Shown here one piece after another: positions 1,152 through 62,205 of a DNA stretch of 64,000 nt. The stretch's first letter is position 1. The number at the start of each line of letters is the position of its first letter. The stretch lies in the NCBI RefSeq assembly GCF_008014675.1, contig NZ_VOXD01000013.1, forward strand, positions 1 through 64,000, written 5' to 3'. The notes below the pieces were generated by a model, which was not told the DNA's origin, did not search any database, and saw nothing but the letters and a program-made list of their open reading frames with translations. A program made the translations under genes and the position numbers. This DNA is from Neolewinella aurantiaca (GTDB taxonomy: Bacteria; Bacteroidota; Bacteroidia; Chitinophagales; Saprospiraceae).

Positions 1152-1301
1152 GGCGGGGCCGCGGGTGCAAGGAAAGTTGCGGAGCAGGGTAGGGGCTTGG
1201 GAAGTGAAGCTCTGCGTTGCGGCACGCCGCAACCGGCTGATGGTTGGTTATAACGGAAGACAACCTGGCCCTTACCTTTCTCTGCACCTGCGTCCGCGCC
1301 C
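1152..1301. repeat. Inward-facing pair of the GCAGGTGCA dispersed repeat, empty (1152-1170 and 1283-1301)
   Basis: A slightly degenerate G-rich copy (GGCGGGGCCGCGGGTGCAA, 1152-1170) faces a perfect C-rich copy (TGCACCTGCGTCCGCGCCC, 1283-1301) about 110 bp away. Purine-rich bases follow the GGTGCA end of each copy, inside the pair. The pair occupies most of the 371-bp gap between the divergent phosphorylase and sigma genes (1061-1431); no gene is supported between the copies and no target-site duplication is visible. Confidence 0.8.
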
Positions 1302-1431
1302 CCTGAATAAGGTGGAAAATGCGCAAAAAAAACGGGGATTGCGGATGCCGGACTCTTCCGGATGAAGGCCCCAAAAGCAACGCGGGAGAAAAAACATCGT
1401 CTCTCCCTGTAACAAACTACTCCGCCCAAAC

Positions 1432-1962
1432 GTGACCCGGGCAAACACAGCAATCATTTTGGACCATTACTCCAGCATTATAACATCCGTTCGTGACCGG
1501 CTTTACCGCCTGGCACTACGCGTCGTTAACGACGCCGATGATGCGGAAGATGTAGTGCAGGATGTACTGGTGAAAAGCTGGGGCCAACGCGAAAAAATTG
1601 TCTGTCTGGATAATCCACCCGCCTGGCTCCTCCGGATGACGAAGCACCAGGCGATCGACCGCCTGCGCTCGGCCAGGGTTCGCAGCGCCCGGGAAACCGA
1701 GGCTGCCATCCCCGACCACGAGGCACGGACGCCTTACCGGATTGCTGCCGCCAATGATACCCTCAGTCATGTCCATCGGCTCCTCCAGCAACTTCCGCCC
1801 GATCAGCGGATGGTGCTACATCTGCGCGAGGTGGAAGGAATGGAATACCAGGAAATTTCTGAGGCTACCGACCTGAGCATGCAGCAGGTGAAAACCTACC
1901 TGCACCGTGGCCGCCATAAAATCAGGGCACTTTTACTCAAAGAAAAAATCGTTCAACCATGA
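1432..1962 (+). CDS. ECF-type RNA polymerase sigma factor
   Basis: A 176-residue sigma-70 family protein of the extracytoplasmic-function class. Region 2 is seen around residues 18-60 (LYRLALRVVNDADDAEDVVQ, then WLLRMTKHQAIDRLR) and region 4 around 115-170 (LPPDQRMVLHLREVEGMEYQEI, then a helix-turn-helix ending in TYLHRGRHKIRALL). The start is GTG at 1432; no ATG fits region 2. It overlaps the next gene by 4 nt (ATGA), and two DUF4252 genes follow on the same strand. Such operons in Bacteroidota usually pair an ECF sigma with a membrane-anchored anti-sigma protein, so this sigma probably controls its own operon; the regulon is unknown. Confidence 0.92.
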   Translation: MTRANTAIILDHYSSIITSVRDRLYRLALRVVNDADDAEDVVQDVLVKSWGQREKIVCLDNPPAWLLRMTKHQAIDRLRSARVRSARETEAAIPDHEARTPYRIAAANDTLSHVHRLLQQLPPDQRMVLHLREVEGMEYQEISEATDLSMQQVKTYLHRGRHKIRALLLKEKIVQP

Positions 1963-2435
1963 TGACGCATTCCGAAGCTGAAATTCTGCTGTACCGTTAC
2001 TTCGAAGGTGAAACCTCGCTCGACGAAGAACTGCGCCTGCGGGAATACTTCAGGGCTGGCGACATCCGCTCTGATCTCGCCGAACTGGATCCCATGTTCG
2101 CCTACTGGGACGAAGCCGCCCAAATAGTGGCTCCTCCGGCAAAGCAAACGGCCATTCGCCGGAGAATTCCCGTGCGGCGCTTGTCTGCGGCCGCCGCCGC
2201 AGCGGTGCTCTTTTTTGCCGTCGGGTCCTGGTTCAACCAGCCTGCCGGCCTGACTAACTTCCCCATCGCCGAGGCGGAGTCTACAACCATAGACTGGAGC
2301 AAATACGAAGTTACTGATCCGGAGGAAGCCTACAAGGTCCTCCGCAATGCCCTCGGTACCGCGAGTGCCGAGATGAACCGCAGTGCCCGGATCACCGTCC
2401 GGGAAATCAGCGCAGCGCGCAATGCGCTGAAGTGA
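1959..2435 (+). CDS. Putative anti-sigma factor, single transmembrane segment
   Basis: A 158-residue protein translationally coupled to the ECF sigma gene (4-nt overlap). The N-terminal half, with LLYRYFEGETSLDEELRL near residue 10, resembles the cytosolic part of Bacteroidota anti-sigma-like proteins found beside ECF sigma factors. One hydrophobic segment (LSAAAAAAVLFFAVGSWF, about residues 75-92) should span the inner membrane, leaving an approximately 65-residue C-terminal domain outside. No zinc-binding HxxxCxxC motif is present. The anti-sigma role rests on topology and coupling, not on a recognised catalytic or binding motif. Confidence 0.65.
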   Translation: MMTHSEAEILLYRYFEGETSLDEELRLREYFRAGDIRSDLAELDPMFAYWDEAAQIVAPPAKQTAIRRRIPVRRLSAAAAAAVLFFAVGSWFNQPAGLTNFPIAEAESTTIDWSKYEVTDPEEAYKVLRNALGTASAEMNRSARITVREISAARNALK

Positions 2436-2499
2436 ATAAACGATGATCGGCAGGTTGCTGCTGGCTGTTTTTCACCATCGACTATCCTTTAACAAGAAC

Positions 2500-2516
2500 C
2501 CCGGGCGCAGCCCGGG
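2500..2516. other. Small GC hairpin before the first DUF4252 gene
   Basis: CCCGGG at 2500-2505 and CCCGGG at 2511-2516 can form a 6-bp hairpin with a 5-nt loop, 17 nt upstream of the ATG at 2534. It could attenuate read-through between the anti-sigma and DUF4252 genes or affect translation. No U-run follows. Confidence 0.35.
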
Positions 2517-2533
2517 AGCATAAAATAATACCA

Positions 2534-8505: not shown

Positions 8506-9819
8506 TCAGTCCCTGGCGTTTAGTGCTTTTAGCAAATCGGTTCCTTCGGGAGGCAGCGCCATACGCAAGGATTCATCGGGCAGCGCGCCAAGGTTGAAGT
8601 AGGTCAGTGAGTCGGTACTGTCGTCGCGGTAGAGTTTGAAGTCGCCATAGCGCACGGCGGAAGCGGCCCCTTCCGGGCCGCCGTAGGGCGCCGACCAGAA
8701 CAAAAACCGTGGCTTAGCGGATGCTCCCCGAAGCAAATGCAAAAAGCTCTGTCCGTCAGGACTGGCGGCATAGTCTCCCTGACTAAGAGCTTCGCCCACC
8801 GAGGGGAAAATGTCGGTTCCCATCACCTGCTCCAGGCTTGCAAACTGAGTGGTGGCGTAAGCCGGGTAATGAACGATAAACGGCACCCGGATACCTCCTT
8901 CGTAAAGGGTTCCTTTGCCACCCCGTAAGATGCCATTGTCGGTAGGTGGGGTATGCGGCAGCAGTTTTCCTTCGGCGGGCAGATCAAGGCCGCCGTTGTC
9001 TGAAGTGAAAATGATCAGCGTATTTTCCAGTTGTCCGTTTTCGCGTAATAAGTCTACAATTCTACCCACGTTTTCGTCGATGACGGAGATCATCGCTGCG
9101 TACTCCAGGGTTGGGAATTTACGCCAGTGGGTACTGTCAATCAGAGCGCGGTAGCCGGTAACCTGATCTTTGCGGCCTTCAAGCGGGACGTGAGGAGCGT
9201 AGTAGTTCAGAGACAATAGCCACGTGGAATCCCGCCATTTGTCCAGCAGGTCGAGGGCATGATCGGTAAGTTTATCGGTCAGGTAATCGCCAGGCTTTGT
9301 TTCTGCCAAAAGGTCGGCCTGAGGCTGAGTGGAGAAGAAAGGATGGTAGTAGCTGTCGGGGTAGCTTTCGTTGGCCGCGAACACGTGGTCGTATCCCTGG
9401 TTTCGGGGTGATTTGCTGCCGGTACCGAGCTGCCATTTTCCGATGTGGGCAGTAAGCAGCCCGGCCCGTTGGGCTAGTTCGCCCAGCGTTTCGTAATTAC
9501 CGGGCAGGGCACCATGATCGGTCCGGGAGGGGTGCAAACCGGTTTGCAGGGCGGCACGGGATGGCTTACCTGCGGGCGCGGCAGCGTAGGCTTGCATGAA
9601 CTGCACACCCCGGCGCGCCAGCGCATCCAGGTTGGGGCTTTTAACCAGGGGATTCCCGTAGCAGTTGAGGTCGGCCCAGCCGAGGTCGTCGGCCACGATC
9701 AGCAGAATGTTGGGCGGAGACGCAGGAGTTGTAGAAGGCGCGGCCGCAGGTGCAGAGGAAGAGTTGCAGGAAGCAAAGAGGGTAATTATCGGTATTAACC
9801 GCAAAAAACGTAGTATCAT
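8506..9819 (-). CDS. Sulfatase-fold lipoprotein lacking the formylglycine residue (probable pseudo-sulfatase)
   Basis: 437 residues from the ATG at 9819, which gives a lipoprotein signal (MILRFLRLIPIITLFASC, lipobox FASC); an upstream in-frame ATG adds 14 residues. The fold is clear: metal site DDLGWADLNCYG, second metal motif SDNGG, and GGKGTLYEGGIRVPFI. The active-site signature C/S-x-P-x-R reads G-K-P-S-R, so the residue converted to formylglycine is Gly (GGT codon near 9569), and the usual GKWHLG motif reads GKWQLG. Both changes affect catalysis in known sulfatases, so classical sulfate-ester hydrolysis is unlikely; binding or a different chemistry is possible. A copy of the dispersed repeat encodes APAAAP in the linker after the lipid-modified Cys. 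Confidence 0.85.
   Translation of the reverse strand: MILRFLRLIPIITLFASCNSSSAPAAAPSTTPASPPNILLIVADDLGWADLNCYGNPLVKSPNLDALARRGVQFMQAYAAAPAGKPSRAALQTGLHPSRTDHGALPGNYETLGELAQRAGLLTAHIGKWQLGTGSKSPRNQGYDHVFAANESYPDSYYHPFFSTQPQADLLAETKPGDYLTDKLTDHALDLLDKWRDSTWLLSLNYYAPHVPLEGRKDQVTGYRALIDSTHWRKFPTLEYAAMISVIDENVGRIVDLLRENGQLENTLIIFTSDNGGLDLPAEGKLLPHTPPTDNGILRGGKGTLYEGGIRVPFIVHYPAYATTQFASLEQVMGTDIFPSVGEALSQGDYAASPDGQSFLHLLRGASAKPRFLFWSAPYGGPEGAASAVRYGDFKLYRDDSTDSLTYFNLGALPDESLRMALPPEGTDLLKALNARD
9737..9754 (+). repeat. GCAGGTGCA dispersed repeat inside the sulfatase-like gene
   Basis: GGCGCGGCCGCAGGTGCA, a consensus G-rich copy followed by GAGGAAGAG. On the coding (minus) strand it reads in-frame as Ala-Pro-Ala-Ala-Ala-Pro in the linker between the lipidated Cys and the enzyme fold. 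Confidence 0.8.
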
Positions 9820-9991
9820 CTGGTGTGTGGAGTATAGGGGCAGAAAGGTGGAAACCTGCAAATATCTGGTAAAGTTGCGGTCTTATCCTAACGGATGCTC
9901 AACAGAACGATTGCCGGTAAAGAGAATTGCTGTTTAGTGTCAAAAAACGTTGCTCGTACCGTGAGGAGCCACCGGTGCAGCTGTGTATTCC

Positions 9992-12276: not shown

Positions 12277-14817
12277 CTAGAACTCCTTATCTCCGAATTC
12301 ACTTTTAGGCAGTTTGGCTTTATTCGCCAGCTTGGTGAAGTGGTAGCCCACACCCAGGCGAAGAATGTCCGGCTCGTAAACATAGTTCGTTGTAGTGAAG
12401 AAGTTGGGCGTGGAGGTAGTGATGCGTTGCTGGTTATTGTCCCATAGCCCCAGGCTGATGTTTTGCCACTGGAAGGTAAGCGTAACCCGTTGTTCCGGGA
12501 ATTCACGGCGAAGACTGAGGTAAGGATTGAAGAAGCGGCCATCGCGCCCCTGCGCCGTTACCCGCTCGGAGAGATAGTTGACGCCGAGCTGCAGGTCGGC
12601 CAGGCCGAAGATCGGAACATCGGTGGTGGTGTTGATGCTGTAAACCCAGTTGCCCGTATCCACCTCGTCGCCGAAGACCTCGCCCTGGATCTGGTAATGG
12701 TACACGTTTCCGCCGAGAGAAACCCGCCAGTCGTTACCCACAGGGAATACTGTCAGGCCCAGCTCCAGGCCGAGAGCGTCGGCACTGCCGACATTCGTAT
12801 AAATCCGGTTTAGGATGGTGTCGTTGTAAATGGTATTAACCCGATTGATCACATCGCGTGTATGCCGGTAATAGATTGTGGCGAAGGCAGAATTATCACC
12901 GAAGTTGGAGGCTACGCCGAGTTCGACTAAGTCCGTCAGTTCAGGGAGAAGTTCCGCATCGCCCTGTTCCAGGGTTTCGTTGTGTTCACGCTCTGGGAAG
13001 GGAGTCATCTTGAAGGTTGTCGTCCGGTCGATGCGGCGACTGTAACCCGCTTTGAGGTTGAGCCCGTCGCCCAGACGGTAGCGCAGGTTGACGGAAGGAT
13101 AAAAGCCAATACGGTCAAGACGATAGGTGGTGTCCGGCTGGTTGAGTTTTACGGTCCTGTCAAAATATTCGAGGCGAAGGCCGGCGGCGTATTCGAGCTT
13201 CTCCGTCGCTCCGCTGATCTGACTGTAGGCAGCGTGCACATCGCGCCGTAACAAAATGCCGTTGGTGAACTCCGGGTTTTCCACAAAGCGGTTGTTCCCG
13301 AAATCACGATCGAGGTAAAGAAAGTCACCCGGGTGTTTGAGGTAACGAAACTGGTAGCCGCTCTCCCAGGTGGCCGCGCCGAGTTTGCCGGTGTAGTCCA
13401 GGTTGAAGCGGTAGCCGTCGAGCGGATTATCGTTGGTGTTAAATTGATACTGGAGGGAGTCCGTTGAGCCCCGCTCGGGGAGGATAGTGTTGTCCGTAGG
13501 GCCACCCAGGATGGTGCGTTCGTAGAGGCCGGAGATGGCTAGTTTACGGTCGTTGCCGAGGTCGCGTTCATAGTCGAGTGAAGCGATGAAGAAGTCACCT
13601 TTCCTGACGCGGAGGTTTTCGTTGTAAAAGGTGCGTTGATCTAAGACTTCCTCTCTCCGGGGTTGGTTCCCCCGGTCGAGGTAAGCCTGGTAATAGCCTT
13701 CAGGACTGAAGCGGGTACTACTTACTGCGGAAAGGAAAGAGCGGGTTTGGTCGAGGTAGAGAATGTCGGCGGTTCGCCAGACGGTTTTTTTCCCCGCGAG
13801 TAGTCCGGCGCGGAGGTTTTGCTTTTTGTCGGGGGTGTAGTTGACGGTTAACCGGCCGGAGTAGTTTTCGCGGTCGTGGCTGCGTTCGCCGTCGCTGGGG
13901 AATTCGGTGAGTTGATCACCTGCGGGGTTTCTACGTCTCAGGGTATTCACGTACCCTTCCCGCCGCCCGGAGTTGTCATCGCGGCGGTAATCGAGGCCGG
14001 CGGCGATGTCCCACTTTCCGGCGCGGTAGCCCGCGCTGAGGTCGGCAGCGTAGCGTTTCTGAGGGTCTTTGTTGTCGTAGTCTTCGAGGCTGGGCAGGCC
14101 GTAGTTCACGTTTCCGGCTAGGCTCCAGCCGTCGGTGCTGCCTTGTTTCGTGATGATGTTGACGATTCCTGCCTTGCCGTCGGGGTCGTATTTCGCACCG
14201 GGGGTAGTGATGATCTCTACGCTGGCAATGGCGTTGGCGGGTAACTGACTAAGAATGGTAGCGGGGTCGGATTGTACCGGCTGGCCGTCGATCAGAACAA
14301 GAAAGCCGGTCGCGCCGCGCACGGTGATTTCGCCCTGTGAATTAATGGCAACCGAGGGCAGGTTGGCGATTACGTCGGTACCCGTTCCGCCGGTGGCGTT
14401 GGTGAATTGATCGGCGTCGAACTCCTGGCGATCGAGGCGGTGGATATCGGTCAGTTTTTTGCCGGTCACTTCCACTTCCTTCAGGATTTGGGCGCCGGAG
14501 CGCAGGTACAAAGTAAGTTCTTCCGAAGATCGCTCCACGGTAAACACATCGGTAAAAACAGCATCGTAGCCAATAAAACTGGCTTGAAGGATGAACGATG
14601 CTTTCCGGGGTGCATTGATTTCCCAAGCGCCCCCTGCACCTGCGACCGCGCCCGTTATCAGACTGGAGTCGACGGCATTCAACAAACTTACGGTGGCAAA
14701 CTCCACAGGTTCGTTAGTGTCATGATCGAGGACTGTTCCCCGGAGCTTGAGGGTGCTTTGAGCAGAGAGAAAAAGGCAACACAGTAATAACTGCAGGGTC
14801 AGGCAAGATTTGAACAT
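12277..14817 (-). CDS. TonB-dependent receptor-like outer-membrane beta-barrel protein
   Basis: 846 residues: signal peptide (MFKSCLTLQLLLCCLFLSAQ), carboxypeptidase-regulatory-like domain (about 22-110), plug-like domain (about 125-225 with VRGATGFLVLIDGQPVQSDP and IEIITTPGAKYDPDGKAGIVN), then a long beta-barrel rich in alternating aromatic strands and ending near the family-typical LGVGYHF. It belongs to the Bacteroidota outer-membrane barrel group related to TonB receptors. The cargo is unknown and no SusD partner is adjacent, so glycan uptake is not indicated. A dispersed repeat copy encodes GAVAGAGG in a turn of the N-terminal domain. Confidence 0.88.
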   Translation of the reverse strand: MFKSCLTLQLLLCCLFLSAQSTLKLRGTVLDHDTNEPVEFATVSLLNAVDSSLITGAVAGAGGAWEINAPRKASFILQASFIGYDAVFTDVFTVERSSEELTLYLRSGAQILKEVEVTGKKLTDIHRLDRQEFDADQFTNATGGTGTDVIANLPSVAINSQGEITVRGATGFLVLIDGQPVQSDPATILSQLPANAIASVEIITTPGAKYDPDGKAGIVNIITKQGSTDGWSLAGNVNYGLPSLEDYDNKDPQKRYAADLSAGYRAGKWDIAAGLDYRRDDNSGRREGYVNTLRRRNPAGDQLTEFPSDGERSHDRENYSGRLTVNYTPDKKQNLRAGLLAGKKTVWRTADILYLDQTRSFLSAVSSTRFSPEGYYQAYLDRGNQPRREEVLDQRTFYNENLRVRKGDFFIASLDYERDLGNDRKLAISGLYERTILGGPTDNTILPERGSTDSLQYQFNTNDNPLDGYRFNLDYTGKLGAATWESGYQFRYLKHPGDFLYLDRDFGNNRFVENPEFTNGILLRRDVHAAYSQISGATEKLEYAAGLRLEYFDRTVKLNQPDTTYRLDRIGFYPSVNLRYRLGDGLNLKAGYSRRIDRTTTFKMTPFPEREHNETLEQGDAELLPELTDLVELGVASNFGDNSAFATIYYRHTRDVINRVNTIYNDTILNRIYTNVGSADALGLELGLTVFPVGNDWRVSLGGNVYHYQIQGEVFGDEVDTGNWVYSINTTTDVPIFGLADLQLGVNYLSERVTAQGRDGRFFNPYLSLRREFPEQRVTLTFQWQNISLGLWDNNQQRITTSTPNFFTTTNYVYEPDILRLGVGYHFTKLANKAKLPKSEFGDKEF
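14635..14653 (+). repeat. GCAGGTGCA dispersed repeat (C-rich copy) inside the barrel gene
   Basis: TGCACCTGCGACCGCGCCC. On the minus coding strand it reads Gly-Ala-Val-Ala-Gly-Ala in the turn of the carboxypeptidase-regulatory-like domain, where related proteins usually carry a D/N/G-rich turn. Confidence 0.75.
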
Positions 14818-15768: not shown

Positions 15769-18700
15769 CTAAAAGAAAGCCTGTACCTGCGCCCTCCCAA
15801 CGTGGACCGTTTTGGCTTCGCCGGTCTGGCGCCCTTCGTAGCTAAGCGTAAGTTGTAAATATTCACCGAGCTGTCTGGTAGCGCCTGTGTTCCACAAGAG
15901 ATTACGGCCAGGCTGCAAGCCCTGCAGGAGCGCGTAGCCTACGGGACTGCGGGAGTCGCCATCAAAGGCAATGTCGACCCAGCGGAAGCGGGCCGTGAGC
16001 CAGTTTTTGTAACTGCCCTCCATGTCGAACTCCAGCCGGTCGGTTTGTTCGCCTTCGCCTCCGGCGAGAATGTTTTTCTCTTGCCCGACGATGACCTTTG
16101 TCACGAGCCGGAGGTCTCCGGGCTGCCAGTTGATGCTCGGTTCGGCGCTTTGGGCTTCGATCCGGTAATCTTTGTTGTTGAAAAATTCTGAGTCGGCAGC
16201 CCGGGAACCGGTTACCGCAGCGGCCTCGAGGGATAGCTGGTCGTTCGGGCGGTAACGAAAGCGCAGGGTCCAGTCCTCGATCTGATTGGATTCGTACCCG
16301 GTGGTCAAGACCTGCCGGGTGCGCCGGTCGGAGTTGCTGAGCTGAATGTCGTACTTCGGGTCGGAACCGTTGAAGAACAGGCCGTGCCTGCGTTGTACGT
16401 TCAGGGCTACCAGGCTGGAGTCGGCAATACCGAGTTGGAGTGGATTCCACGCCTGAACGTCGGGGTGGTCTCTCGTTTTTCGGTCAATGATTACACTGGT
16501 GTTCAGGGCGAAGCGGCGCAAGAACTTTTTAACCCCTTTGGCGTCACGCCAAAGTTTTGCCGGGTCCCAACTCAGGGTCTGGTTAAGGGCGACGTTATCG
16601 GTCTGAATAAAGTCATCGCTGAACACAGAAACCCGGACGTAGTCACCGATGTCGGAAAACGGTGCAATTTCCATTTCGTTGGGCTGGATGCGGCCATCGT
16701 TGTTGTACAGGCTATCCTGCCAGATGTATTGCCCCTGACCCGGTCCGACGTAGAGGTACTGGAAATCCACCCGAGGCTCCTGACCGTTACCGACCTGATA
16801 GGTAGTTTGCGTCTTCAGGCTGCGCTCAAGAGCGTTGATGCGGAGGTCCAGCCTGCCCAGAATTGTTCGACTGGGCGTATCCTCCACGAGTTCCCGGTCA
16901 TTGACGATCAGATCCCGGAAAGTGAAGTTGCCACCGAATTGTACGTGCTCGCTGGCGGTGTAATTCCCCTCGGCGGTCAGCTCGCTGGATTCGGTAGAGA
17001 CGATGAGTTCGTCTCCCTTGGGCAGGTGGTCTGTTCGCTGGTTGGCACTGATGCTGAATTTATAGTTTTCGTTGGTAGGCAGGGCCATACCAACGGTGTA
17101 TTTGTCGAACTGAAAAGACAGGGGAGAGAGGGTGTCGATCCCGATAGCCTGCCGTATGGAGCGCTCCCCCTCGTAGGCCGACTGCAGGGTCCATCCTCCC
17201 ATTTTTTCGAATGTTTTACTGATCTTCAGTTTGGGTTGCCGAAAACTGCCATCAGCGACATCGTCTCTGCTTTGCAAGATGCTGATGTTGCCGTCTACCA
17301 GCCAGTTTTTTGCATCGACTTTTATCGAGGCAGCGTGGCGCTGCCCGTTGTAGCTCTGTCCCCTTACGAACTGTTCGTAGTCGTAATCGAATCGTCCCGT
17401 TTTACTTTTTACGAGGCCCAGACCCAAGCCCAGCACTTGCTCGTTTTCCCGCTCCGGCTGAACGGTGCCGAGGCGGTCACTGAGGTTCCAGTTCCGGAAG
17501 AATTCGGAGCTGCGGTAAGGGTTGATGGCATTGAAGCTTCGCTCTACGAATTCGTAGTGTCCGCGCCCGGCGAGGGCCCAGCCTACTGAGTCGGGGCCGA
17601 TGGAGAAGGTCCGGTCGGCGTCGAAGCGCAGCGCGCTTCCGTTGTCGTCCTCGGCATCTTCGCGGCTGAAGCGATTCAGGTCGAGCTTACTGCGGGAGCC
17701 TTCTATTCGTACACTTCCGTTTTTTTTGAACCGGTATTCTCCTCCGAGCGCGATGAGCTGTTGTTGGGTTGGGGCAACAAGCTCGATGACGGGCGAAAAA
17801 CTGCCCTGAGGCGTACAGGTCTCGGGGTTTGAGCCAACGTACCGGAAGACACGCTCGTTGGCCGAGTTTTCAGTATCCAGTTCATACTCTCCGAGGCCGG
17901 CACCGGTTTGGGTAAAAGTGGCAACGTAGCGGCCTGAAGTCGAACTCTTGAGATAAACGGTATCGATGTTGCGGGTTCCGCAGGTGTAGCTGGTGTCGCG
18001 GAGTTCATAGGTGGCGCGCTGTTCCGCGCGCCCGTCAAGGGTGTCGAGGCTCAGGATGGGGATGCCGCCTTCGGCGTCGCCGAATCCGGCGAGTTGAGAC
18101 CGCTGGTTGGCGGTAAGTTCCAGATCGCCGGTGGCGGTACGGCTGTCTTGCTGAGAGTAAGCATTGAGGTAAGCACTGAAGCGTTCAGTGTCGTAGCGTG
18201 TTCCTCCGGTGGCCAGGGTACGGAGGTAGCGTTGGTCGGCAAATTCGTATTCGGCCGTAATCCGGCTGTCGCGGGTAATCAGCCGGCGGGTGGTGAAGGT
18301 CAGCTCCGCGATGTTATAATCTATGATGTAGTCGCCGTCGAGCCCGCGCACGAGCAACTGCCCGTCGAGGTAAATACGTTCCGTGCCGGCAAGCACGATC
18401 AGAAACTGCTGGTTGCCGTTGCCCACGAGTTTGTAGGGCCCCTGATTGCCCTCTATTGGTTCAATTTGCTGCCGGACGAACTGTCCCCTGGCAACTGCTA
18501 TAGACGCTGAGTTGGTGAGCTGGCCCGGGGGCGAATCGTCTTCAGCTGAGCGCCCCGGGGGCGCTGCGCCTCGGACCGGACCCGCACCTGCGTCACCGCC
18601 CGAAACAGTGGTAAACGTCGCGCCTTCGAGTTTTTTGAAATAGCGCAAAAAGTAACCATCGGGGTTACGGAGTTCGTAGTCGCCAGCCGTGAGTGTACTG

Positions 18701-19407: not shown

Positions 19408-19488
19408 GGGCGCGGACGCAGGTGCAGCGAAAGGTCGCTGTGAAGAGCACTCTCCTGAAAGCGTGCTTTGCACCTGCGATCCCGCCCC
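19408..19488. repeat. Inward-facing pair of the GCAGGTGCA dispersed repeat, empty (19408-19426 and 19469-19488)
   Basis: A perfect G-rich copy (GGGCGCGGACGCAGGTGCA) faces a C-rich copy (TGCACCTGCGATCCCGCCCC) with only 42 bp between them, in the 231-bp divergent gap between the 1187-residue gene and the toxin-antitoxin operon. Close enough to form a cruciform or RNA hairpin. Confidence 0.85.
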
Positions 19489-20318: not shown

Positions 20319-23300
20319 CTACGTCCAGTCATCCACTTCGTCGACCCGCTCCAAAGGGACTTCCTCGCGTAGATCCGCCACAAAGCGGCACCAATCACAG
20401 TCTTCTTCTCCGCAGCCGGTGAAGTTCTGCGCCTGAATGCCATCCCAGGCTTCCCGCATAATCGCCCGCAGCGCATCCTGGTCTTTGGGGCCCATCGAGA
20501 CGGTAGCCTCGGGTTGCTTACCCTGAGAGTTGACAAGCAGAAAACTGATCTTTCCCTCCTTTACCCGGCGGATATTCCCCGGCCGGTTATCGTAGAGCAG
20601 TTTGTAGAAGTTGAGCTGCCGCCAGTAGTTTCCGCCGTGGGGTTTCGACTTAGTGGGGCCTTTTATTTTTGGCCCCAATGACCCTTTACCAGAGCCGCTG
20701 GTTTTGTAATCTACCACACGCACCCATGCGTCGCTTAGAATGTCTACGCGGTCAATCATCCCAACGAGCGGAATACCGTCGACTTCAGTATTGCGGATGA
20801 GCATTTCAACTTCCACGTCTGCGGTCCAGCCACTGCGGTAGGTGTCGTAGTAGCTCGCAAGCTCGAGGTTTCCCTGACGCAGGCGGTTACGAAAGCCCTC
20901 GGGGCTAAGGAGGCCCCGTCGCCTGTTTAGCGCGGATTCGAAGTTGAAGAGCAGCTCTTCCTTGCTGGGGAAAATTTTGGAGGTGTCCCTCTTCATCCGC
21001 AGGAAGTAGGTCTCTAGGGCATCGTGCAGGGCCGATCCGTAAAGGGTTTGCTCCCGCTCCAGGTCGGGTACGCCGAGGAGTTTTTCGTAAAAAAACGCGG
21101 TAGGGCACTTCAGGTAACTGTAAAGCGCACTTACGCTGAGGCGGAAGTCTTTCAACAGTTCCGCGATAGCGGAAGCTTCCAGACCGGGGAGTCGGCTTTG
21201 ATCGGTTGGCTGTAGTTGGAGAACGGCCGTTTCCATGGTGTCTTCGGCGGAGAGGCCCGCTTCTTCAATTTCAAGTCCGGTGTCGCTTACCAGTTCATCG
21301 ATGAAGGAAACCCGTTGCTGAGCTTTGCCTTTACCGTCGAGGTCGGCCACAGACATGATTACCTCAGTTTTTGCCCGGGTCATAGCCACGAAGAACAACC
21401 GGCGGCGTGCTTCCTCTTCGCTTTCTACGCCGGTGTAGGTGAGGGTGTCGGGCAGCTTGAACTGCGATTTTCGGCCACCATTGGGCTTACCCCATTTGGG
21501 CTCGGCGCAGTCGAGCATCCACACTTTATCGAATTCGAGTCCTTTGGCGCTGTGCGCCGTAACGAGCAGGACAGCCTCGGCCTGGTCAAGATGAGAACGC
21601 AGCGGTAGCTGGATGCGGTTTTCGTCCATCTGTTCGATGGTTTCCAGTAGTCCTCCGAGCATGATTCTTGGTCGGCGGGCGACTTCCGCAACGGTGAAGT
21701 CGGCGAAGGTTGCGAGGTGTTGGAGCAGTTCGGCCCGGTTGGGATGACGCAGGACATTGGGCAGTAGCCCGGAGCCGTTCATGGCGCGCTCGACGTACTC
21801 GGTGAGCGGGTAGAGGCCAATTTCGCCGATCATATCTTCGAGCCAGTCGGCGGCGACCTGGATGGCGTCGCCATCGCGCAGGTCTTCCGGCCAGCGCTGG
21901 GGCATTTGCAGGAAGTCGCGCCAGGTGGGGAAGAACCCCTCGGCGTCTTTGGCGGCCAGGCGTGCGCGGTTCAGCCGGGCCAGGTCGTGCGGCCAGAGGC
22001 CGAAACAGCGGAAGTGAAGGACGCGGAAGAGCAGGTATTCGCCGGTTCCCGGGCGATCGTATTCTGCCTGGAGGTAGTGCAGCAGGTCGAGCAGCTGCCG
22101 TACGGGGCGTCCGTTGAGGACGTTGGGCCTGCGCTTGCTCTGGTAGGGGATGTCCGCGCGTTCCAGCAGGTGGCGGAGCTCCTCGGCCTGGCCGTGCCGG
22201 GCGTAAATCACGGCCATCTCGGACCAGGGCGTGCCAGCGGCATGCCACTGCCGCAACTGGTTGATGAGGTAGCCGGTTTCCTGATGGGCATCGGGGAAGG
22301 TGAGGATGCGGACCGATTCTTGATTCTCGATTTGGCTGCCGCTTGTTGGAGATTCAGATACTCGCTCCAACGTCTCCCCTCTCCAAAGGAGAGGGGCTGG
22401 GGGAGAGGGATTATCAGACACAGTTGAAGCAGGATGGGGTGTTTCTGCTGTGCCCGGCTCTTCTGAAACTTTACCCTGCACCTGCGTTTGCGCCGAAAAG
22501 GCAGGGTTGCTGGCCACCAGTTTCTTCTCTACCGCCAGTTCCGGAAGCTTGTTCCCGATCCGGAGGTCGTTCTTCGCAATGAGCGTAGAGGCAACGTCAA
22601 GGATTTCCTGGCGGCTGCGGTAGTTCTCGGTCAGTGTGACCAGTTTCACGTCGTTGTACCGCTGAAAGAAATCGGTCATTGAGCGCAGGCGCGCGCCCTG
22701 AAATTCGTAGATCGCCTGGTCGTCATCGCCAACGATGAAGATGTTGGGGTTTTCCCAGTATTCTACGAGACTGCGGACGATGGCATCCTGGGCACCGTTG
22801 GTGTCCTGAAACTCATCCACCAACACGTATTGGTAGCGTTCCTGGTACGCTCGCAGCAGGGAAGGGAAATCGTTGAAGGCGCGCAGTACCCACCCGATCA
22901 TATCTCCGTAATCGTAGCGGCGCTCTTTACGCAACGCCTCCTGGTAGGCCGGAAACAGTTCTGCCGCGGCCCGGAGACGCTTCATGCGTAGAATCTCCTC
23001 GTCGATCTGGCCCTGCTTGGGGTCGCCTTTAGCTTTGTCTTTGTACTTCTTCTGGTAAACAAAATCCGGATGGGTCGGCAACTCAGCTACGTACCGGTCG
23101 ATCTTCTGTTCTATGTCGTCGAGTTCCCAGTTTTCGGCTTTAATGGCACCGAAGAGATGCTTCAGGTGAGGTTCGTAGAAGTAGGGGTCATGGTAGCCTT
23201 GGCGCAGGGGTGTGTCTTGTTCCAGCCCATCCAGCAAGCTGCGGATGATGCGGATTTGCTCCAGCTCACCGAGCGGCTCGAGGTCGGGCTTGCCGAAGTA

Positions 23301-30581: not shown

Positions 30582-30601
30582 TCAAGTGCCGGCAAAGTGT
30601 T

Positions 30602-33297: not shown

Positions 33298-33316
33298 GGG
33301 CGGCACGCGCAGGTGC
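33298..33316 (+). repeat. GCAGGTGCA dispersed repeat in the hemW-desaturase intergenic region
   Basis: GGGCGGCACGCGCAGGTGCA-type copy (one base shift in the arm) followed by AGGTAGGAGG. It lies in the divergent gap between hemW and the desaturase gene, which has its own internal facing copy at 34641. Confidence 0.65.
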
Positions 33317-33435
33317 AAGGTAGGAGGTTGAAGGGGCAATGTTCTGTAAATTGCTCGCTTCCGGCTCCTGACGACGAACCTTTCCTGTATAATTCTCTTC
33401 CCCTACCGGAAAGCTAACACAAAAACAGAATTCTT

Positions 33436-42006: not shown

Positions 42007-42130
42007 GGGCGCGGCCGCAGGTGCAAAGTAAAGGTCTGGGCAAACAAGGCTCCTGAACTTAGGCTCGCCGAAGCACTTTTACGGGCGCTTTCCGTCTCTA
42101 TGTAACGCCCCCTGCACCTGCGTTCGCGCC
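42007..42130. repeat. Inward-facing pair of the GCAGGTGCA dispersed repeat, empty (42007-42025 and 42113-42130)
   Basis: GGGCGCGGCCGCAGGTGCA faces TGCACCTGCGTTCGCGCC with 87 bp between, in the 252-bp gap between the dioxygenase start and the esterase stop. No gene and no flanking duplication are seen. The pair has the form of a small terminal-inverted-repeat element of about 124 bp. Confidence 0.85.
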
Positions 42131-45333: not shown

Positions 45334-45411
45334 CCGGGCGCGGCCGCAGGTGCAGAGAAGGGTAGGGGAGCAGGCAAGGTTATTTAACCTGCTATTCACA
45401 ACGATTAACAG

Positions 45412-46352: not shown

Positions 46353-46424
46353 AAACTTATCCCTGCACCTGCGTTCGCGCCTTCTGATTGTTGCAGGGCC
46401 ACAAATAGGTCATTAAAAGCATCT

Positions 46425-49345: not shown

Positions 49346-52063
49346 ATGTTACGTCATTCTCTAACGCTGATCATCGCCCTTTTTGCCCTGACGCTGTCTG
49401 CTCAGTTTGGCAACCCCATCAGCTGGGACTTTTCCTTCAAACAGGTGGAAGGAGATGAGTTTGAGCTTATTGCTACTTCTTATGCAGAGGATGGTTACAT
49501 GATTTACAGTCAGTTTACCCCCGAAGGTGGCCCGATACCAACGGTATTTACGTGGGAGCCGGGCGAGCACTATGAACTGATTGGCAGAACGGAAGAAGAA
49601 GGTCACCTCAAATCAGGTATGGACGAGATGTTTGGCATCGAGGTCAACAAATTCTTGCCGGACCGCCCCGTGACCTGGACGCAGCGCGTAAAGGTGAAAG
49701 ATTACGGCACGCCGATTGAAATGATGGTAGAGTGGATGTGCTGCGACGACGAGGAATGCCTGCCACCTACCGATGAGATTCACAGCTTCGTACTGCCCGC
49801 TCCGGCACCAGCCCCGGACCCTGCACCTGAAAATAAGCCAGCACCGGAGAACGAAGGAACAGACGGTGATGAAGCCGGGCAAGAGGATGTTGCCCAGGTC
49901 TCAAAACCATCCCCTGCACCTGCGGCCCCCCGCCCGGAACCACAAACGGCACAGCCCGCACCCGCAAAAGAAACGACCCCGGTAAAGCCCGAAGCAGAAT
50001 CGGTCGAACCCGAAACACCAGCCTCCACTGATTTGCCAGTAAAGGGCACTTACGAAGTCAAAGGCCCTGCCCCCAGCGAACGCGCACCCGTAAGCTGGGA
50101 TGCGAAAGCAGAAGACCTCGGCAACGGCACTTACCGCATTTCTATGACCGGAACGATGTTGCCGGAATGGACGATTTACAGCAAAGATGTGGATCCGGAC
50201 GTAGGTCCCATCCCCACTACTTTCGTTGTTCAGAACAACGACAAGGCAAAGACGGTGGGTGAAGTCTCGGAAAAAAGTGCTACACTAATCGAAAAATTTG
50301 ATAAAGCCTGGGACACGGTCGTCGCCAAAATAGATGGCGGAACAGTGGTGTATAGCCAACTGGTTGAAGTGCCGGCGGGCAGTAAAATAAGCGGCTACCT
50401 CGAGTATCAAACGTGTGATGGCGAGATGTGCCTGCCCCCGACTGAAGTCCCCTTCTCGCTGGACCTCGCCGAAAAGACACCTGTACTGATGCTGGACGGC
50501 CTCACCGCTTCGGATGCACCGGTTGCTCCCGCAGCTCCTGCTGGCGAAGTGAACACTGCCCTGCCCAACGAACTCGGCATCAGCGTTCCTTTCAACCCCG
50601 AACCCGTAGGTGATTGCAGCGTGGGCGCCAAAGAAACTGCCGGTAAAAGCCTGTGGGCCATCTTCGGTCTCGGCCTCCTCGGTGGCCTTTTCGCCATGCT
50701 GATGCCCTGCATCTTCCCGATGATTCCGCTGACGGTGAGCTTCTTCACCAAAAGCGGCGGTAGTAGAGGCGAAGGCATCCGCAAGGCGGGCCTCTACGGC
50801 TTCTTCATTTTCCTGATCTACGTACTGCTGAGTGCGCCCTTTCACCTGCTGGACGGCTTAGACCCCAGCATCCTCAACAACATCGCGAGTAGCGTTACCC
50901 TCAACGTTATTTTCTTTGTTGTCTTCATCTTTTTTGCCGGTAGCTTTTTCGGCTTTTACGAACTCACGCTGCCCGAAAGCTGGAGCAACCGCGCAAGCCG
51001 GGCCGAAGGCACCGGCGGCATCGCCGGTATTTTCTTCATGGCGCTCACTCTGGCTTTGGTTTCTTTCAGCTGTACTGGTCCTATCCTGGGTAGTCTTTTG
51101 GTGGAAGCCGTAAGTGGTGGCGCGTGGCCGCTGACCGCAGGGATGGCCGGCTTCGGCGTGGCGCTCGGTCTGCCGTTCGCGCTTTTCGCAGCCTTCCCCG
51201 GCTTCCTGAACAGTATGCCGAAGAGCGGCGGCTGGCTGAACAGCGTAAAGGTGGTGCTTGGTTTTGTGGAGGTCGCACTGGCTTTCAAATTCCTGAGTAC
51301 GGCCGATCTGGTTGGTAATTGGGACCTGCTGCGCATCGAGCCTTTCCTCGTCGTCTGGATTCTCTGCGCACTTGGCATCGCAGCCTACTTACTTGGCTTT
51401 ATCAACTTCCCTCTGGACAGCAAAAACAGAAAGAGGAGTACCCTGGGTGTAGCGCTGGCAGTTGGAGCTCTCGTGCTTACCGGTTACCTCGCAATCGGCC
51501 TTACGGCAGACAGCGATACCGGAACGTACACCGGCCGCAAACTGATGAGTGGTATCGCTCCTCCGGTTTGTTACAATTACTTCTTGCCTTGCGATGAGGA
51601 CAAAAACATAACTCCTTTCAAAGATCTGGAAGAAGGATTGGCTTACGCCCGTGAAGTAAATAAGCCGGTAATGCTGGACTTCACCGGCTACTCCTGTGTC
51701 AACTGCCGTAAAATGGAAGAGCACGTATGGACAGAGCAAAAGATCAAGCGTTATCTGACCGATGAGTATGTTATCATCAGTCTCTACGTCGACGAGCGCA
51801 AGCCGTTACCCGAAGAGCAACACATCGAGGTTGACCGAATGGATGGGTCGGGCCGCAAGAGACTGATCAATACCGTTGGTAAGAAGTGGCAATACCTGCA
51901 GCAGTCTGTCTATTCCAAGTTGTCGCAGCCGTATTACGTTCTGGTCGATCCGGACGGTACCACCCTGAATCCGCCCGTTGCCTACACGGCCGATGTGGAT
52001 ACTTATGAGGACTTCCTGGAGTGTGGCCTGGCTACCTACCGGAAACTGGAGAGTAGTAAGTAG
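49346..52063 (+). CDS. dsbD: DsbD-type thiol:disulfide interchange protein with two tandem N-terminal domains
   Basis: 905 residues. Signal peptide, then two similar DsbD-alpha-like domains: one at about 22-150 with CCDDEECLPPT, another at about 245-375 with TCDGEMCLPPT, both keeping a redox-type Cys pair. Between them is an Ala/Pro/Glu-rich linker (about 150-235) containing a dispersed-repeat copy. The membrane part (about 430-720) has the reactive Cys in LLMPCIFPMIP (about 454) and SFSCTGPILG (about 576). The C-terminal thioredoxin domain has CVNC (about 784). It moves electrons from cytosolic thioredoxin across the membrane to periplasmic thiols. Confidence 0.92.
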   Translation: MLRHSLTLIIALFALTLSAQFGNPISWDFSFKQVEGDEFELIATSYAEDGYMIYSQFTPEGGPIPTVFTWEPGEHYELIGRTEEEGHLKSGMDEMFGIEVNKFLPDRPVTWTQRVKVKDYGTPIEMMVEWMCCDDEECLPPTDEIHSFVLPAPAPAPDPAPENKPAPENEGTDGDEAGQEDVAQVSKPSPAPAAPRPEPQTAQPAPAKETTPVKPEAESVEPETPASTDLPVKGTYEVKGPAPSERAPVSWDAKAEDLGNGTYRISMTGTMLPEWTIYSKDVDPDVGPIPTTFVVQNNDKAKTVGEVSEKSATLIEKFDKAWDTVVAKIDGGTVVYSQLVEVPAGSKISGYLEYQTCDGEMCLPPTEVPFSLDLAEKTPVLMLDGLTASDAPVAPAAPAGEVNTALPNELGISVPFNPEPVGDCSVGAKETAGKSLWAIFGLGLLGGLFAMLMPCIFPMIPLTVSFFTKSGGSRGEGIRKAGLYGFFIFLIYVLLSAPFHLLDGLDPSILNNIASSVTLNVIFFVVFIFFAGSFFGFYELTLPESWSNRASRAEGTGGIAGIFFMALTLALVSFSCTGPILGSLLVEAVSGGAWPLTAGMAGFGVALGLPFALFAAFPGFLNSMPKSGGWLNSVKVVLGFVEVALAFKFLSTADLVGNWDLLRIEPFLVVWILCALGIAAYLLGFINFPLDSKNRKRSTLGVALAVGALVLTGYLAIGLTADSDTGTYTGRKLMSGIAPPVCYNYFLPCDEDKNITPFKDLEEGLAYAREVNKPVMLDFTGYSCVNCRKMEEHVWTEQKIKRYLTDEYVIISLYVDERKPLPEEQHIEVDRMDGSGRKRLINTVGKKWQYLQQSVYSKLSQPYYVLVDPDGTTLNPPVAYTADVDTYEDFLECGLATYRKLESSK
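49915..49935 (+). repeat. GCAGGTGCA dispersed repeat (C-rich copy) in the DsbD linker
   Basis: TGCACCTGCGGCCCCCCGCCC, two bases longer in the arm than consensus. It reads PAPAAPRP in the linker between the two N-terminal domains. Confidence 0.65.
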
Positions 52064-52261
52064 AGGGTATAGTTGCCGAACTCACGAAGTGGGTGTTTCC
52101 CTGCAGGAGCACTACTCCCCATCTTCTACACACTCAAAAAGGGCGCGGTCGCAGGTGCACAGTAGGTTAAAGTCAGTTTTAACAGGCAAAGCACGGTGAC
52201 AAAGGCAACCTCTCCTCCCGAAATACGTACTATTCACACATAACCAAAAGATTCTACATCC

Positions 52262-52999: not shown

Positions 53000-53284
53000 T
53001 TGTGTTTGAAGAAGGTGGTTCAGATGCATTGATATTAGCCGCACATTGTATAGAGTAATTTATTTTAAAACAATAAGTAGTATCAATAAATTTTTCTATC
53101 TTCGCCACTGCGGTTGCGCCGGGAATAGAAACCTCTCTCTGCTCTCTTGAGAGTTTGACTTTGCACCTGCGCCCGCGCCGCCGCTTGCTCCTTGACTAAG
53201 GGGGAGAGTGAGATGTATTCCGGCTCGGGATATTAAGTATGACATACAGCAGAGCAAATAACAGCTACGAAAAGATACCGAAAC

Positions 53285-60491: not shown

Positions 60492-60519
60492 TTGGCTCGT
60501 TGCTACGTTCTTATCTTTG
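60492..60519 (+). promoter_or_regulatory. Promoter (TTG, 17 bp, TATCTTTG) of the DUF3299-like gene
   Basis: TTG at 60492-60494, spacer of 17, TATCTTTG at 60512-60519, then 20 nt to the ATG at 60540. The best complete -33/-7 promoter in the window. Confidence 0.75.
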
Positions 60520-60539
60520 CTAAACCAAACCACTACGTT

Positions 60540-60995
60540 ATGCGCGCCTTACTTCTTTTTAGTGCTCTTTTCATTTTCTCGGGTTCTGCCATTCAGGCAC
60601 AGGATACCAACCTTTGGAAGACACTTTCTAAGATTACCTACGAGAAAAAATTCGATGAACTGCTCGGTTTTAAAGTCGACGTACCCGTTTTCGGAGATGA
60701 TATCAAAGCACTGGAAGGCGAAATCGTGGAAGTAAGTGGCTACATCGTTCCGGTGGAGGGCTACAAAAGCCACACCGAGTTTGTGTTCAGTGCCTACCCT
60801 TACAACATGTGCTTCTTTTGCGGAGGTGCGGGTCCCGAAACGGTAATGGAGGTAACCAGCAAAGAGCCCGTGAAATACAGCACCGACCGGGTTAAGCTCC
60901 GTGGTAAACTCTTGCTGAACAGCGATGACATCAACCGCCTGATGTACGTATTAGTCGACGCTGAATTGGTGAAAGGAGGAATGGACGGGAAATAG
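60540..60995 (+). CDS. Small exported protein of the DUF3299-like type
   Basis: 151 residues from the ATG at 60540, which gives a signal peptide (MRALLLFSALFIFSGSAIQA); an in-frame start at 60492 would overlap the promoter. The mature part is a small beta-rich domain with SGYIVPVEGYKSHTEFVFSA and the striking PYNMCFFCGGAGPETVMEV (about 92-110), a motif I associate with DUF3299-type proteins. The CFFC pair could bind metal or be redox active. Function is unknown. Confidence 0.65.
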   Translation: MRALLLFSALFIFSGSAIQAQDTNLWKTLSKITYEKKFDELLGFKVDVPVFGDDIKALEGEIVEVSGYIVPVEGYKSHTEFVFSAYPYNMCFFCGGAGPETVMEVTSKEPVKYSTDRVKLRGKLLLNSDDINRLMYVLVDAELVKGGMDGK

Positions 60996-61095
60996 ATTGA
61001 ATCGTTGGCGGGTGGCAAACCAGCTGTGTCCCTCAGTACCCGGAATGTCAACGAACTGAGCTGTCAATGAATAAGTTTATTCAGCGAATCAATAC

Positions 61096-61114
61096 GGGCG
61101 CAACCGCAGGTGCA
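61096..61114 (+). repeat. GCAGGTGCA dispersed repeat upstream of the M28 gene
   Basis: GGGCGCAACCGCAGGTGCA, followed by AAGAAGG. It faces a C-rich copy inside the M28 gene at 61297, about 180 bp away, so this pair straddles the gene's promoter and signal peptide. Confidence 0.75.
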
Positions 61115-61144
61115 AAGAAGGTCTCTTTGGAAGCAGGGAACCAT

Positions 61145-61152
61145 TACCTTTG
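61145..61152 (+). promoter_or_regulatory. -7 box (TACCTTTG) of the M28 peptidase gene
   Basis: Exact TAnnTTTG match, 33 nt before the proposed GTG start at 61186; TTTG at 61126-61129 may serve as the -33 element. Confidence 0.55.
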
Positions 61153-61185
61153 TCCCTCCGGACCCATAAAAAACAAACTGATCCC

Positions 61186-62205
61186 GTGCGTATAATCCAT
61201 TCACCTTTCCTTGCCTTCCTGATCGTACTTGCCGGTATGCTGGCGTTCTCTTCCTGTGGAGACGATGCCAAAGACCCTGCTAATTCAACCACCACCGCAC
61301 CTGCGGCCCCGCCAAAAAGAGAAGTGGATCCTAACGCAAAACCCGTCCCCCGCTTTGATGCAGACAGCGCTTATGCTTACGTCGCGAAGCAAGTCTCCTT
61401 CGGCCCCCGGGTTATGAACACCCCCGCTCACGATGCTGCCGGAGAATGGCTTTCGTCAAAGCTGAACTCCCTCGGCGCCGAAGTAGAGGAGCAAGAGTTT
61501 ACGGCTATGGCCTATGATGGTACGCCGCTGAAAGGCACCAACATTATTGGTCGTTACAATCCGGAAATGGAGTATCGTATCGCGCTTGCCGCACACTGGG
61601 ATACGCGCCATGTAGCGGATAGCGATAAAGAAACCGATCCTGCCGCAGTAGTGGAAGGGGCCGATGACGGCGCCAGTGGGGTGGGCGTCCTGCTTGAAAT
61701 AGCCCGCCAACTTGGCCAGTCAACCCCTGGTGTGGGCGTGGATATCATTTTCTTCGACGCCGAGGACTACGGAGAACCTAATAACTCCGACAGCTACGGG
61801 TTAGGATCACAGTATTATGCTAAAAACCTCAAAGACCCTAAACCAACCTACGGTATCCTGCTGGATATGGTTGGTGCCAAGAACGCCCGCTTCTCTAAGG
61901 AAGGATACTCTGTCCGCGAGGCTCCGGTTTTGGTAGAAAAAGTATGGCGTCTGGCCAAGGGGCTTCCGATGTCGAATGCTTATTTCCTAGATAAAAATGT
62001 CGGGTACATAACCGATGATCACTTCTTCGTGATGCGGGATGGCGGAGTTCCCATGATAGATATTATCAACTTTGGCGACGAAGGCTTCGGAGACCATTGG
62101 CACACCGGCAACGACGGTATGAACATCATCGACAAGAACACCCTCCGCGCCGTAGGCCAGGTGGTCGCCGCCGTGGTGTACCGGGATGCAGCCGGAACGT
62201 TCTAG
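61186..62205 (+). CDS. M28-family metallopeptidase / glutaminyl-peptide cyclotransferase-like lipoprotein
   Basis: 339 residues with a GTG start at 61186, preferred because it begins a lipoprotein signal (RIIHSPFLAFLIVLAG, then FSSC); a TTG at 61150 would overlap the promoter box. Zinc-site motifs of the M28/QC fold: LAAHWDTRHVADS (about 137), EGADDGASGVGVL (about 158), FFDAEDYGEPNN (about 195) and GFGDHWHTGNDGMN (about 305). Glutaminyl cyclases share this pattern and turn N-terminal Gln into pyroglutamate, which is common on T9SS-exported Bacteroidota proteins; an aminopeptidase is the alternative. A repeat copy encodes TTAPAAPPK in the linker after the lipidated Cys. Confidence 0.85.
   Translation: MRIIHSPFLAFLIVLAGMLAFSSCGDDAKDPANSTTTAPAAPPKREVDPNAKPVPRFDADSAYAYVAKQVSFGPRVMNTPAHDAAGEWLSSKLNSLGAEVEEQEFTAMAYDGTPLKGTNIIGRYNPEMEYRIALAAHWDTRHVADSDKETDPAAVVEGADDGASGVGVLLEIARQLGQSTPGVGVDIIFFDAEDYGEPNNSDSYGLGSQYYAKNLKDPKPTYGILLDMVGAKNARFSKEGYSVREAPVLVEKVWRLAKGLPMSNAYFLDKNVGYITDDHFFVMRDGGVPMIDIINFGDEGFGDHWHTGNDGMNIIDKNTLRAVGQVVAAVVYRDAAGTF
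61297..61313 (+). repeat. GCAGGTGCA dispersed repeat (C-rich copy) in the M28 gene
   Basis: GCACCTGCGGCCCCGCC, encoding Ala-Pro-Ala-Ala-Pro in the linker between lipid anchor and enzyme fold; same position type as in the sulfatase-like gene. Confidence 0.65.

Follow-up and report, generated by a model that had tools for sequence, protein, structure and literature searches.

An abundant 40-bp polar DNA word in Neolewinella: a candidate self-recognition signal resembling DNA uptake sequences

What is the short GC-rich sequence that recurs between and inside the genes of Neolewinella aurantiaca, and what might read it? The question arises from the first 64 kb of contig NZ_VOXD01000013.1 (hereafter the window) of this marine Neolewinella bacterium, whose 6.0-Mb genome (G000; ~53% GC, 104 contigs) serves as our reference. 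The initial annotation had described the sequence as an abundant 19-bp repeat of unrecognized class. We find a longer word of fixed polarity, present on both strands, fairly evenly spaced on each strand, varied into species dialects and carried by viral contigs. On balance, and with modest confidence, we favor its being a genus-specific DNA self-recognition signal with a putative role in uptake, comparable to the DNA uptake sequences (DUS) of Neisseriaceae and the uptake signal sequences (USS) of Pasteurellaceae.

Abundance and anatomy of the repeat

The window contains 18 occurrences of GCAGGTGCA, where 0.48 would be expected (the largest count in 100 shuffles was 2), and 19 of the 19-mer with at most three mismatches, where 0.12 would be expected. 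We then scanned 464 kb of the genome (the window, 300 kb of contig C1 and 100 kb of contig C2) using a 40-column position weight matrix (PWM) at a threshold of at least 12 bits, the training DNA being the same DNA as that scanned. This yielded 176 sites (one per 2.6 kb). One third-order Markov simulation gave 5 and the reversed sequence 2, so that the count stands far above the Markov background with which the initial annotation had proposed to compare it. Scores in this sample were nearly bimodal, with 155 sites of at least 20 bits and 194 of at least 6 (16 at that level in the reversed control). Genome-wide, the strict form GCNNNCGCAGGTGCA was found 405 times forward and 411 times in reverse (816 in total; none on either strand in the reversed control), and the word is thus strongly over-represented on both strands, as is characteristic of DUS and USS. 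Because the strict pattern catches 71 sites where the PWM finds 176, we estimate a genome-wide total of about 2,000–2,300. All 22 copies first listed in the window were located to within 0–2 bp, and their description as abundant, in both orientations and lying between as well as inside genes agrees with these counts. The list itself was incomplete, lacking the copy at 14493, and one of its members (26850) is weak.

The conserved unit is a polar word of ~40 bp, TTnnGGGCGCGGnCGCAGGTGCARRGnnnGGTT followed by purines, with a total information content of 31 bits. As read from the logo and PWM, its layout runs from A/T-rich bases through GGGCGCGGnCGCAGGTGCA, RRG, a gap and G-G/T-T-T to the closing purines; the logo was aligned on 115 exact GCAGGTGCA cores, which makes those nine columns invariant by construction. 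No palindrome extends over its length, and its information content is graded and gapped. Some copies carry AGGAGCA after the tail at a variable distance, and a second spacing variant, GGGCGnCGGnGCGCAGGTGCA, is present in genes. Several details of the earlier description therefore need adjusting: the repeat is real, but the unit is longer than 19 bp; of two core bases said to vary freely, one is nearly free (the N before CGCAGGTGCA; A 0.39, C 0.35) but the preceding one is mostly G (0.67); and the purine-rich tail does contain purines, but as part of a structure, with RRG, then a few bases further on G-G/T-T-T, and then the purines.

Placement, spacing, dialects and viral carriage

Gene context was assigned with a home-made gene caller, which classified 175 of the 176 sites. 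Intergenic DNA, ~15% of a sample that is ~85% coding, holds 100 of them, including 33 between divergent genes. Among the 75 genic sites, 49 lie mid-gene, 25 in the orientation of the gene and 24 opposite to it, and genic copies use five of the six reading frames; the motif is thus a DNA word independent of frame, genic and intergenic alike. Five frames of six, taken together with the unbiased mid-gene orientation, indicate that what is maintained is the DNA sequence itself, at any place where the protein tolerates it; a role as RNA or protein is unlikely. Orientation is biased toward the ends of genes, with 15 opposite (reverse complement) and 4 same-orientation sites within 60 codons of the start, and 1 opposite and 6 same-orientation sites within 60 codons of the stop. 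In one frame, the reverse complement within ~60 bp of gene starts resembles signal-peptide ends by eye (CTCVRAQ/CTCxRAQ-like), where the repeat seems to have been recruited as protein-coding sequence. For G001, a genus member with another dialect of the word (below), 24 of 58 sites are intergenic, and mid-gene copies divide into 11 same and 9 opposite.

The copies are also arranged with respect to one another. All 26 neighboring pairs less than 400 bp apart in the G000 sample are inverted (23 tail-to-tail, 3 head-to-head, none tandem). Tandem neighbors remain rare at 400–2,000 bp (4, alongside 22 tail-to-tail and 22 head-to-head) and make up 25 of 78 at 2–5 kb and 4 of 21 beyond 5 kb. Overall, 33 of 173 neighbor pairs share an orientation, against 85.9 ± 6.6 under a null that keeps gene context. 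Measured along one strand, the gaps (n = 170) average 5,308 bp with a coefficient of variation (CV) of 0.45, compared with 0.80 ± 0.06 when orientations are shuffled (lowest of 2,000 shuffles, 0.637) and 0.81 ± 0.06 under the context-keeping null; only 7 such gaps are shorter than 2 kb, where 37.8 ± 4.1 are expected from shuffled orientations and 37.6 with gene context kept. The two strands are nearly independent, as sliding one against the other predicts a fraction of 0.242 ± 0.026 equal neighbors (observed, 0.191). Orientations thus alternate because each strand has its own fairly regular series, and what is left once this is accounted for is an excess of tail-to-tail pairs below 400 bp (23 versus ~7). 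This lattice suggests a one-way process initiated at the motif and extending over several kb. Deletion between direct repeats was considered as a cause of the missing tandem pairs and is disfavored, given that intervals of 0.4–2.5 kb are mostly coding DNA.

Other members of the genus show the pattern less fully. For nine relatives pooled, scanned as short stretches with the G000 PWM, tandem pairs account for 7 of 57 neighbors below 2 kb (where half would be expected), 20 of 46 at 2–5 kb and 12 of 24 beyond, so that alternation is clear only below 2 kb. The 58 sites of the G001 dialect (400 kb) give a CV of 0.63 versus 0.82 ± 0.10 (P = 0.015), with 19 of 57 neighbors equal (P = 0.006), which is a weaker effect than in G000.

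Considering 40 genomes, 21 from the genus Neolewinella/Lewinella and 19 from outside it, the motif is abundant only within the genus: strict copies number 214–816 in nine genus genomes (one of which, G010, is 55% complete), 2–127 in the other twelve and 0–6 outside. A low strict count can mean another dialect, and de novo k-mers and PWMs yielded, for several species, words that are related yet not the same, in the manner of DUS and USS dialects; some of these words are tentative. The dialect of G001 consists of GGCGGCGGAGCGCAGGTA-type words, one pattern of which has 427 matches there against 0–18 per genome among the remaining 20, and none in the reversed control. Those of G009 and G012 (GGGCGGGGCCGCAGGTGC), G019 (GGGCGCGGnCGCGGGTGC) and G007 (a GCGCAGGAG form) were also recovered by PWM refinement; that of G014 (GGGCGCTGCCGCGGGTGC) was not. 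For G002, G004, G009, G012, G013, G016, G017, G019 and G020, one or more refinement runs gave at least three hits in reversed sequence, and any of their dialects resting on refinement alone is therefore tentative. No convincing word emerged from G004, G011, G017 or G020, and k-mers from three other genera of the family (51–98 kb each) gave other repeats and no related word. Further words are enriched in individual genomes: TAGTACGGTAG (G001), TTAGATTTTAG (G014), TAGGCGGTAGG (G019), AGGTTACAGGT (G021) and GTTGCGGGTTG (G023).

The word is also found in viral DNA. A scan of viral contigs with GGCGCGGNCGCAGGTGCAR returned 56 stretches, compared with 17 (all with a single hit) for the reversed pattern. 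Of these 56, 29 have a site of at least 26 bits and fall into 13 non-redundant groups, whose representatives hold 28 sites of at least 14 bits in 124 kb (none in the reversed control), or one per 8.3 kb once the site that brought each group in is removed; some groups with a single site may be chance. Protein scans of four loci (L304, L306, L307 and L320) identified terminase, head protease, endolysin, portal (weak), tape measure, tail fiber and integrase, the last in one locus (L306), while the host of these contigs is assigned from the motif only. One group of 11 related viral stretches carries the motif (L307, L300, L321, L326, L341 and others). Searches of a phage collection, where L307 has no near match, and of plasmids for the motif found nothing, and the G001 dialect was found in one viral stretch. 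As a point of comparison, Haemophilus phage HP1 has 17 USS in 32 kb versus 0.3 expected, and an accumulation of USS is reported for the temperate phages that infect USS-bearing hosts (PMC6776037).

Copies in the window and at orthologous positions

The 23 copies in the window (Table 1) were compared with G003, G008, G018 and G005, and partly with G002 and G006; the closest relatives, G003 and G008, are 82% and 81% identical to G000 in the nucleotide sequence of the topoisomerase gene. There were 68 orthologue comparisons, of which 25 had one flank only and were left out, 15 aligned straight through and 28 fell between alignments; dropping 5 of the latter (>900 bp) left 23 diverged intervals of at most 623 bp, bracketed by alignment (G002, G003, G005, G008 and G018). 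A same-orientation site is present in 14 and an opposite one in 3, while 6 have none, against ~3 of 23 with a site expected by chance from the mean density. The intervals are not independent (one of them enters twice, for two different sites), and one of the three opposite-strand calls (61097 in G018) is a neighboring site and no flip. Straight-through alignments had the site in 15/15, a biased set, as the site itself helps the alignment. Orthologous stretches lacking the site were decayed or replaced, and no clean empty site was seen among relatives of which the closest are 81–82% identical at one gene. From these alignments, the motif looks to be kept with slow turnover, not recently inserted.

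The region upstream of the topoisomerase gene shows dialect and position together: as read by eye, five species have at least three different forms of the motif at one shared location, which lies between the start codon and a promoter-like stretch. Short species-specific tandem repeats fill this upstream region in N. antarctica and Lewinella sp. JB7 (L043 ~9620–9900; L050 ~9730–9960). Elsewhere in the window (29343–31855), a gene with a PycTM (Pycsar effector) domain adjoins an HD-domain gene, and the pair is possibly a cyclic-nucleotide defense neighborhood.

Table 1 Copies of the motif core in the window (PWM sites; 18 bp each), with their setting and occurrence in relatives.
Feature	Position	Strand	Remarks
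Motif core	1152..1169	+	Tail-to-tail pair with 1283
Motif core	1283..1300	-	
Motif core	9737..9754	+	Just 5' of called sulfatase gene start; also in aligned G003, G005, G008
Motif core, alternative spacing GGGCGCCGGAGCGCAGGTACA	14493..14510	+	Within outer-membrane beta-barrel/TonB-type gene; absent from earlier list
Motif core	14635..14652	-	Same beta-barrel/TonB-type gene as 14493; tail-to-tail with 14493
Motif core	18583..18600	-	Genic; also in G003, G005, G008, G018
Motif core	19409..19426	+	Tail-to-tail pair with 19469
Motif core	19469..19486	-	Pair partner of 19409
Motif core	22477..22494	-	In UvrD/PDDEXK gene; matching interval has opposite-strand site in G003, G008 and same-strand site in G005, G018
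Weak motif copy, 12.8 bits	26850..26867	+	
Motif core	27706..27723	-	Intergenic; shared with G008; no copy found in G003, G005 (one flank only)
Motif core, alternative spacing	31185..31202	+	In PycTM gene
Motif core	33300..33317	+	Intergenic
Motif core	34641..34658	-	In amine oxidase gene
Motif core	42008..42025	+	Tail-to-tail pair with 42113
Motif core	42113..42130	-	Not found in relatives compared
Motif core	45337..45354	+	Intergenic; no orthologous stretch found
Motif core	46364..46381	-	5' of UDP-sugar dehydrogenase gene, which also has a nearby site in G003, G006, G018 (one flank only); none found in G008, G005
Motif core	49915..49932	-	Low-complexity linker of DsbD-like gene; kept in G002, G003, G005, G018; not in G008
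Motif core	52142..52159	+	Intergenic; G003, G005, G008 have variant with one extra base (GCAGGATGCA)
Motif core	53162..53179	-	5' of topoisomerase A-subunit gene 53285-55927, between promoter-like stretch (by eye) and start
Motif core	61097..61114	+	3' of gene ending 60995; tail-to-tail with 61296
Motif core	61296..61313	-	Near start of gene called 61237-62205; also in G003, G005, G008, G018

Candidate readers of the word

From the observed properties of the motif (abundance, structure, dialects, positional conservation, DNA-level character, per-strand spacing and viral presence), we infer that its reader is an uptake machine. A DUS/USS-like signal is the best reading because of the dialects, the equality of the strands, the placement under low constraint, the gene-end bias, the inverted pairs and the carriage by phages. 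The initial annotation had named several classes for comparison without choosing one; DNA uptake sequences fit best, while repetitive extragenic palindromic (REP) sequences and bacterial interspersed mosaic elements (BIMEs), miniature inverted-repeat transposable elements (MITEs) and Rickettsia palindromic elements fit badly. Mechanistically, a receptor would bind the ~40-bp double-stranded word, in its fixed polarity, as DNA from close relatives is taken up. Fragments bearing the motif would then be favored both in uptake and in recombination, so that copies would build up where constraint is low (intergenic regions, linkers and signal peptides) and stay at orthologous positions. A change in the receptor may shift the copies in sequence together and so give rise to dialects. 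The same-strand spacing of ~5 kb could come from a one-directional process starting at the motif, for which a second copy facing the same way nearby would be redundant.

The resemblance to known uptake signals is close in several respects. With the USS of Pasteurellaceae (H. influenzae) the motif shares a long form with core and flanks, occurrence on both strands, an intergenic excess and inverted pairs, as well as the gene-end orientation bias, which one study reports for several Pasteurellaceae (PMC2346458). Carriage by temperate phages would be a further parallel. The motif differs in its unrelated sequence, in the absence of a detected PilQ, and in its density, one per 2.6 kb and regular per strand, versus ~1 per kb for USS, whose distribution is termed relatively even (PMC7811141). 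The DUS of Neisseriaceae likewise form species dialects that share a core within one family and reach thousands of copies (PMC3630211); they differ in being bound by ComP (same source), in being only ~12 bp long and in having an uptake role shown by experiment.

Several observations weigh against this interpretation. Some concern the competence machinery. PilQ was found in 0/21 genus genomes, and the type IV pilus and secretin apparatus of known DUS/USS hosts (ComP is a minor pilin) was not recovered from these 21. Matches to the pilus/type II secretion ATPase family PF00437 were weak (best 24.9 bits, or 25.5 with neighbors, over at most 84 of 370 positions; 11 of 21 genomes over the 24.9-bit cut-off) and are probably other ATPases. 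Of the inner-membrane and periplasmic competence proteins, which would agree with uptake, ComEC is present in 21/21 genomes and HHH_3 (ComEA-like) domains in 20/21, but they say little, as both also occur in species without a clear motif. As a possible receptor, PF18942 (the Riemerella DUF5689) was rejected, being absent from 20/21 genomes and carried only by G011, which has just 3 strict copies; no candidate receptor for the motif came out of these genomes. In favor of uptake, on the other hand, competence without pili is reported within Bacteroidota for Riemerella, where the required genes include those for ComEC, a predicted outer-membrane barrel and a helix-hairpin-helix protein (PMC8459023). 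A preference for own DNA is reported for Riemerella columbina, the only candidate signals there being A-rich k-mers (PMC7965970).

The remaining objections concern the pattern itself. In G001, the gene-end bias is absent (3/3 at starts, 4/4 at ends) and close pairs split evenly (2 tail-to-tail, 2 head-to-head). The viral contigs give no lattice signal (7 of 15 neighbors equal), and neither do the USS of phage HP1 (P = 0.29), although 17 sites are too small a sample to judge. We found no description of a same-strand lattice for DUS or USS, and near-matches are fewer than a slowly decaying word might leave, given the nearly bimodal scores. Tail-to-tail pairs lie 44–390 bp apart, tens to hundreds of bp, unlike the overlapping terminator dyads formed by USS (PMC7811141). 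In H. influenzae, orientation is reported to be without effect on uptake and USS to be less even than a role in compaction would need (PMC1939737), and the gene-end bias described for USS does not extend to Neisseria and differs in A. pleuropneumoniae (PMC2346458).

The lattice, with the one-way process that it suggests, also fits the main rival, a polar site inside the cell for a one-directional DNA machine (a helicase-nuclease, a translocase or a loop-forming protein). Such a Chi-like or chromosome-organizing site would act ~5 kb in one direction, so that each strand would need its own regular series, as the CV and the near-independence of the strands would have it, and the motif in viral contigs is compatible with it as well. 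We used Chi of E. coli K-12 as a yardstick (200 kb, 41 sites): it is polar and has a mean same-strand gap of ~5 kb, like the motif, but it is an 8-bp sequence, favors one strand (37+/4−) and is irregular (CV 1.07). An E. coli-like Chi, a short octamer favored on one strand, was thus set aside for a strand-equal word of 40 bp. For the wider class, 31 bits over 40 bp with AT-rich and purine flanks far exceed the length of known Chi sites, the strand totals are equal (405/411, as totals and not along replichores), and the gene-end orientation bias is left unexplained. We regard a cell-internal site of this kind as possible but rather unlikely.

Much less probable is a transcriptional element (a terminator, a 5' untranslated region (5'UTR) RNA element or a promoter insulator) with its tail toward promoter regions. 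The idea of a terminator or 5'UTR element arose from the region around the topoisomerase gene and from the way in which tails face promoters; the intergenic concentration and the gene-end orientation bias of G000 agree with it, as do tail-to-tail pairs with a promoter-like stretch between them, as read by eye in N. persica. It is weakened by the mid-gene copies without orientation bias, by the third of intergenic copies that lie between divergent genes and by a lattice that persists under the context-preserving null, independent of gene context. Rfam gave no match at gathering threshold in the window, which counts against an RNA element.

A mobile element of REP/BIME or MITE type, spread by a transposase, is marginally less credible still. 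Copy numbers in the hundreds to thousands, the intergenic bias and the uniformly inverted close pairs are all familiar from REP/BIME elements, which go with REP-associated tyrosine transposases (RAYTs). REP sequences, however, are hairpins with a GTAG-type foot, whereas the motif has no palindrome over its unit and its information is graded and gapped; orthologous sites, species-specific dialects and an alternation that reaches out to kilobases also argue against such spread. Nor is there a link to Y1 transposases: RAYT-type PF01797 is present in 20/21 genus genomes whatever their copy number and so does not track the motif, and its absence from G018 (441 strict copies) is weak evidence, as that assembly is fragmented. 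HIP1 of cyanobacteria is another very abundant GC-rich word, but it is an 8-bp palindrome, and the motif is polar and 40 bp long. Finally, a compositional or annotation artefact, conceivable for a GC-rich core in a genome of ~53% GC, has practically nothing in its favor, as it is countered by the Markov, shuffled and reversed controls and by conservation at orthologous places and is already refuted by the counts.

The self-recognition signal can be drawn more fully, and then more tentatively, as a genome-wide self-mark that each strand would carry independently about once every 5 kb, same-facing copies excluding one another within ~2 kb. Its reader would be a one-directional machine not built on a type IV pilus, the mark serving self-recognition in Bacteroidota through dialects that coevolve with it and a host word that phages imitate. 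We lean slightly away from this complete picture. In the accessible literature, which comprised mostly titles and abstract openings with subscription papers largely outside it, we found no uptake sequence in Bacteroidota and no report of, or name for, this repeat. Uptake sequences with dialects are established in two proteobacterial families, and the motif is a candidate for one in Bacteroidota, where it bears on how DNA might cross the outer membrane when no pilus is present. A word of 31 bits with dialects in named species offers direct bait for a receptor and a direct test of uptake. The per-strand lattice, in turn, is a quantitative clue to mechanism and, if absent from classical DUS/USS genomes, would point to a different kind of process.

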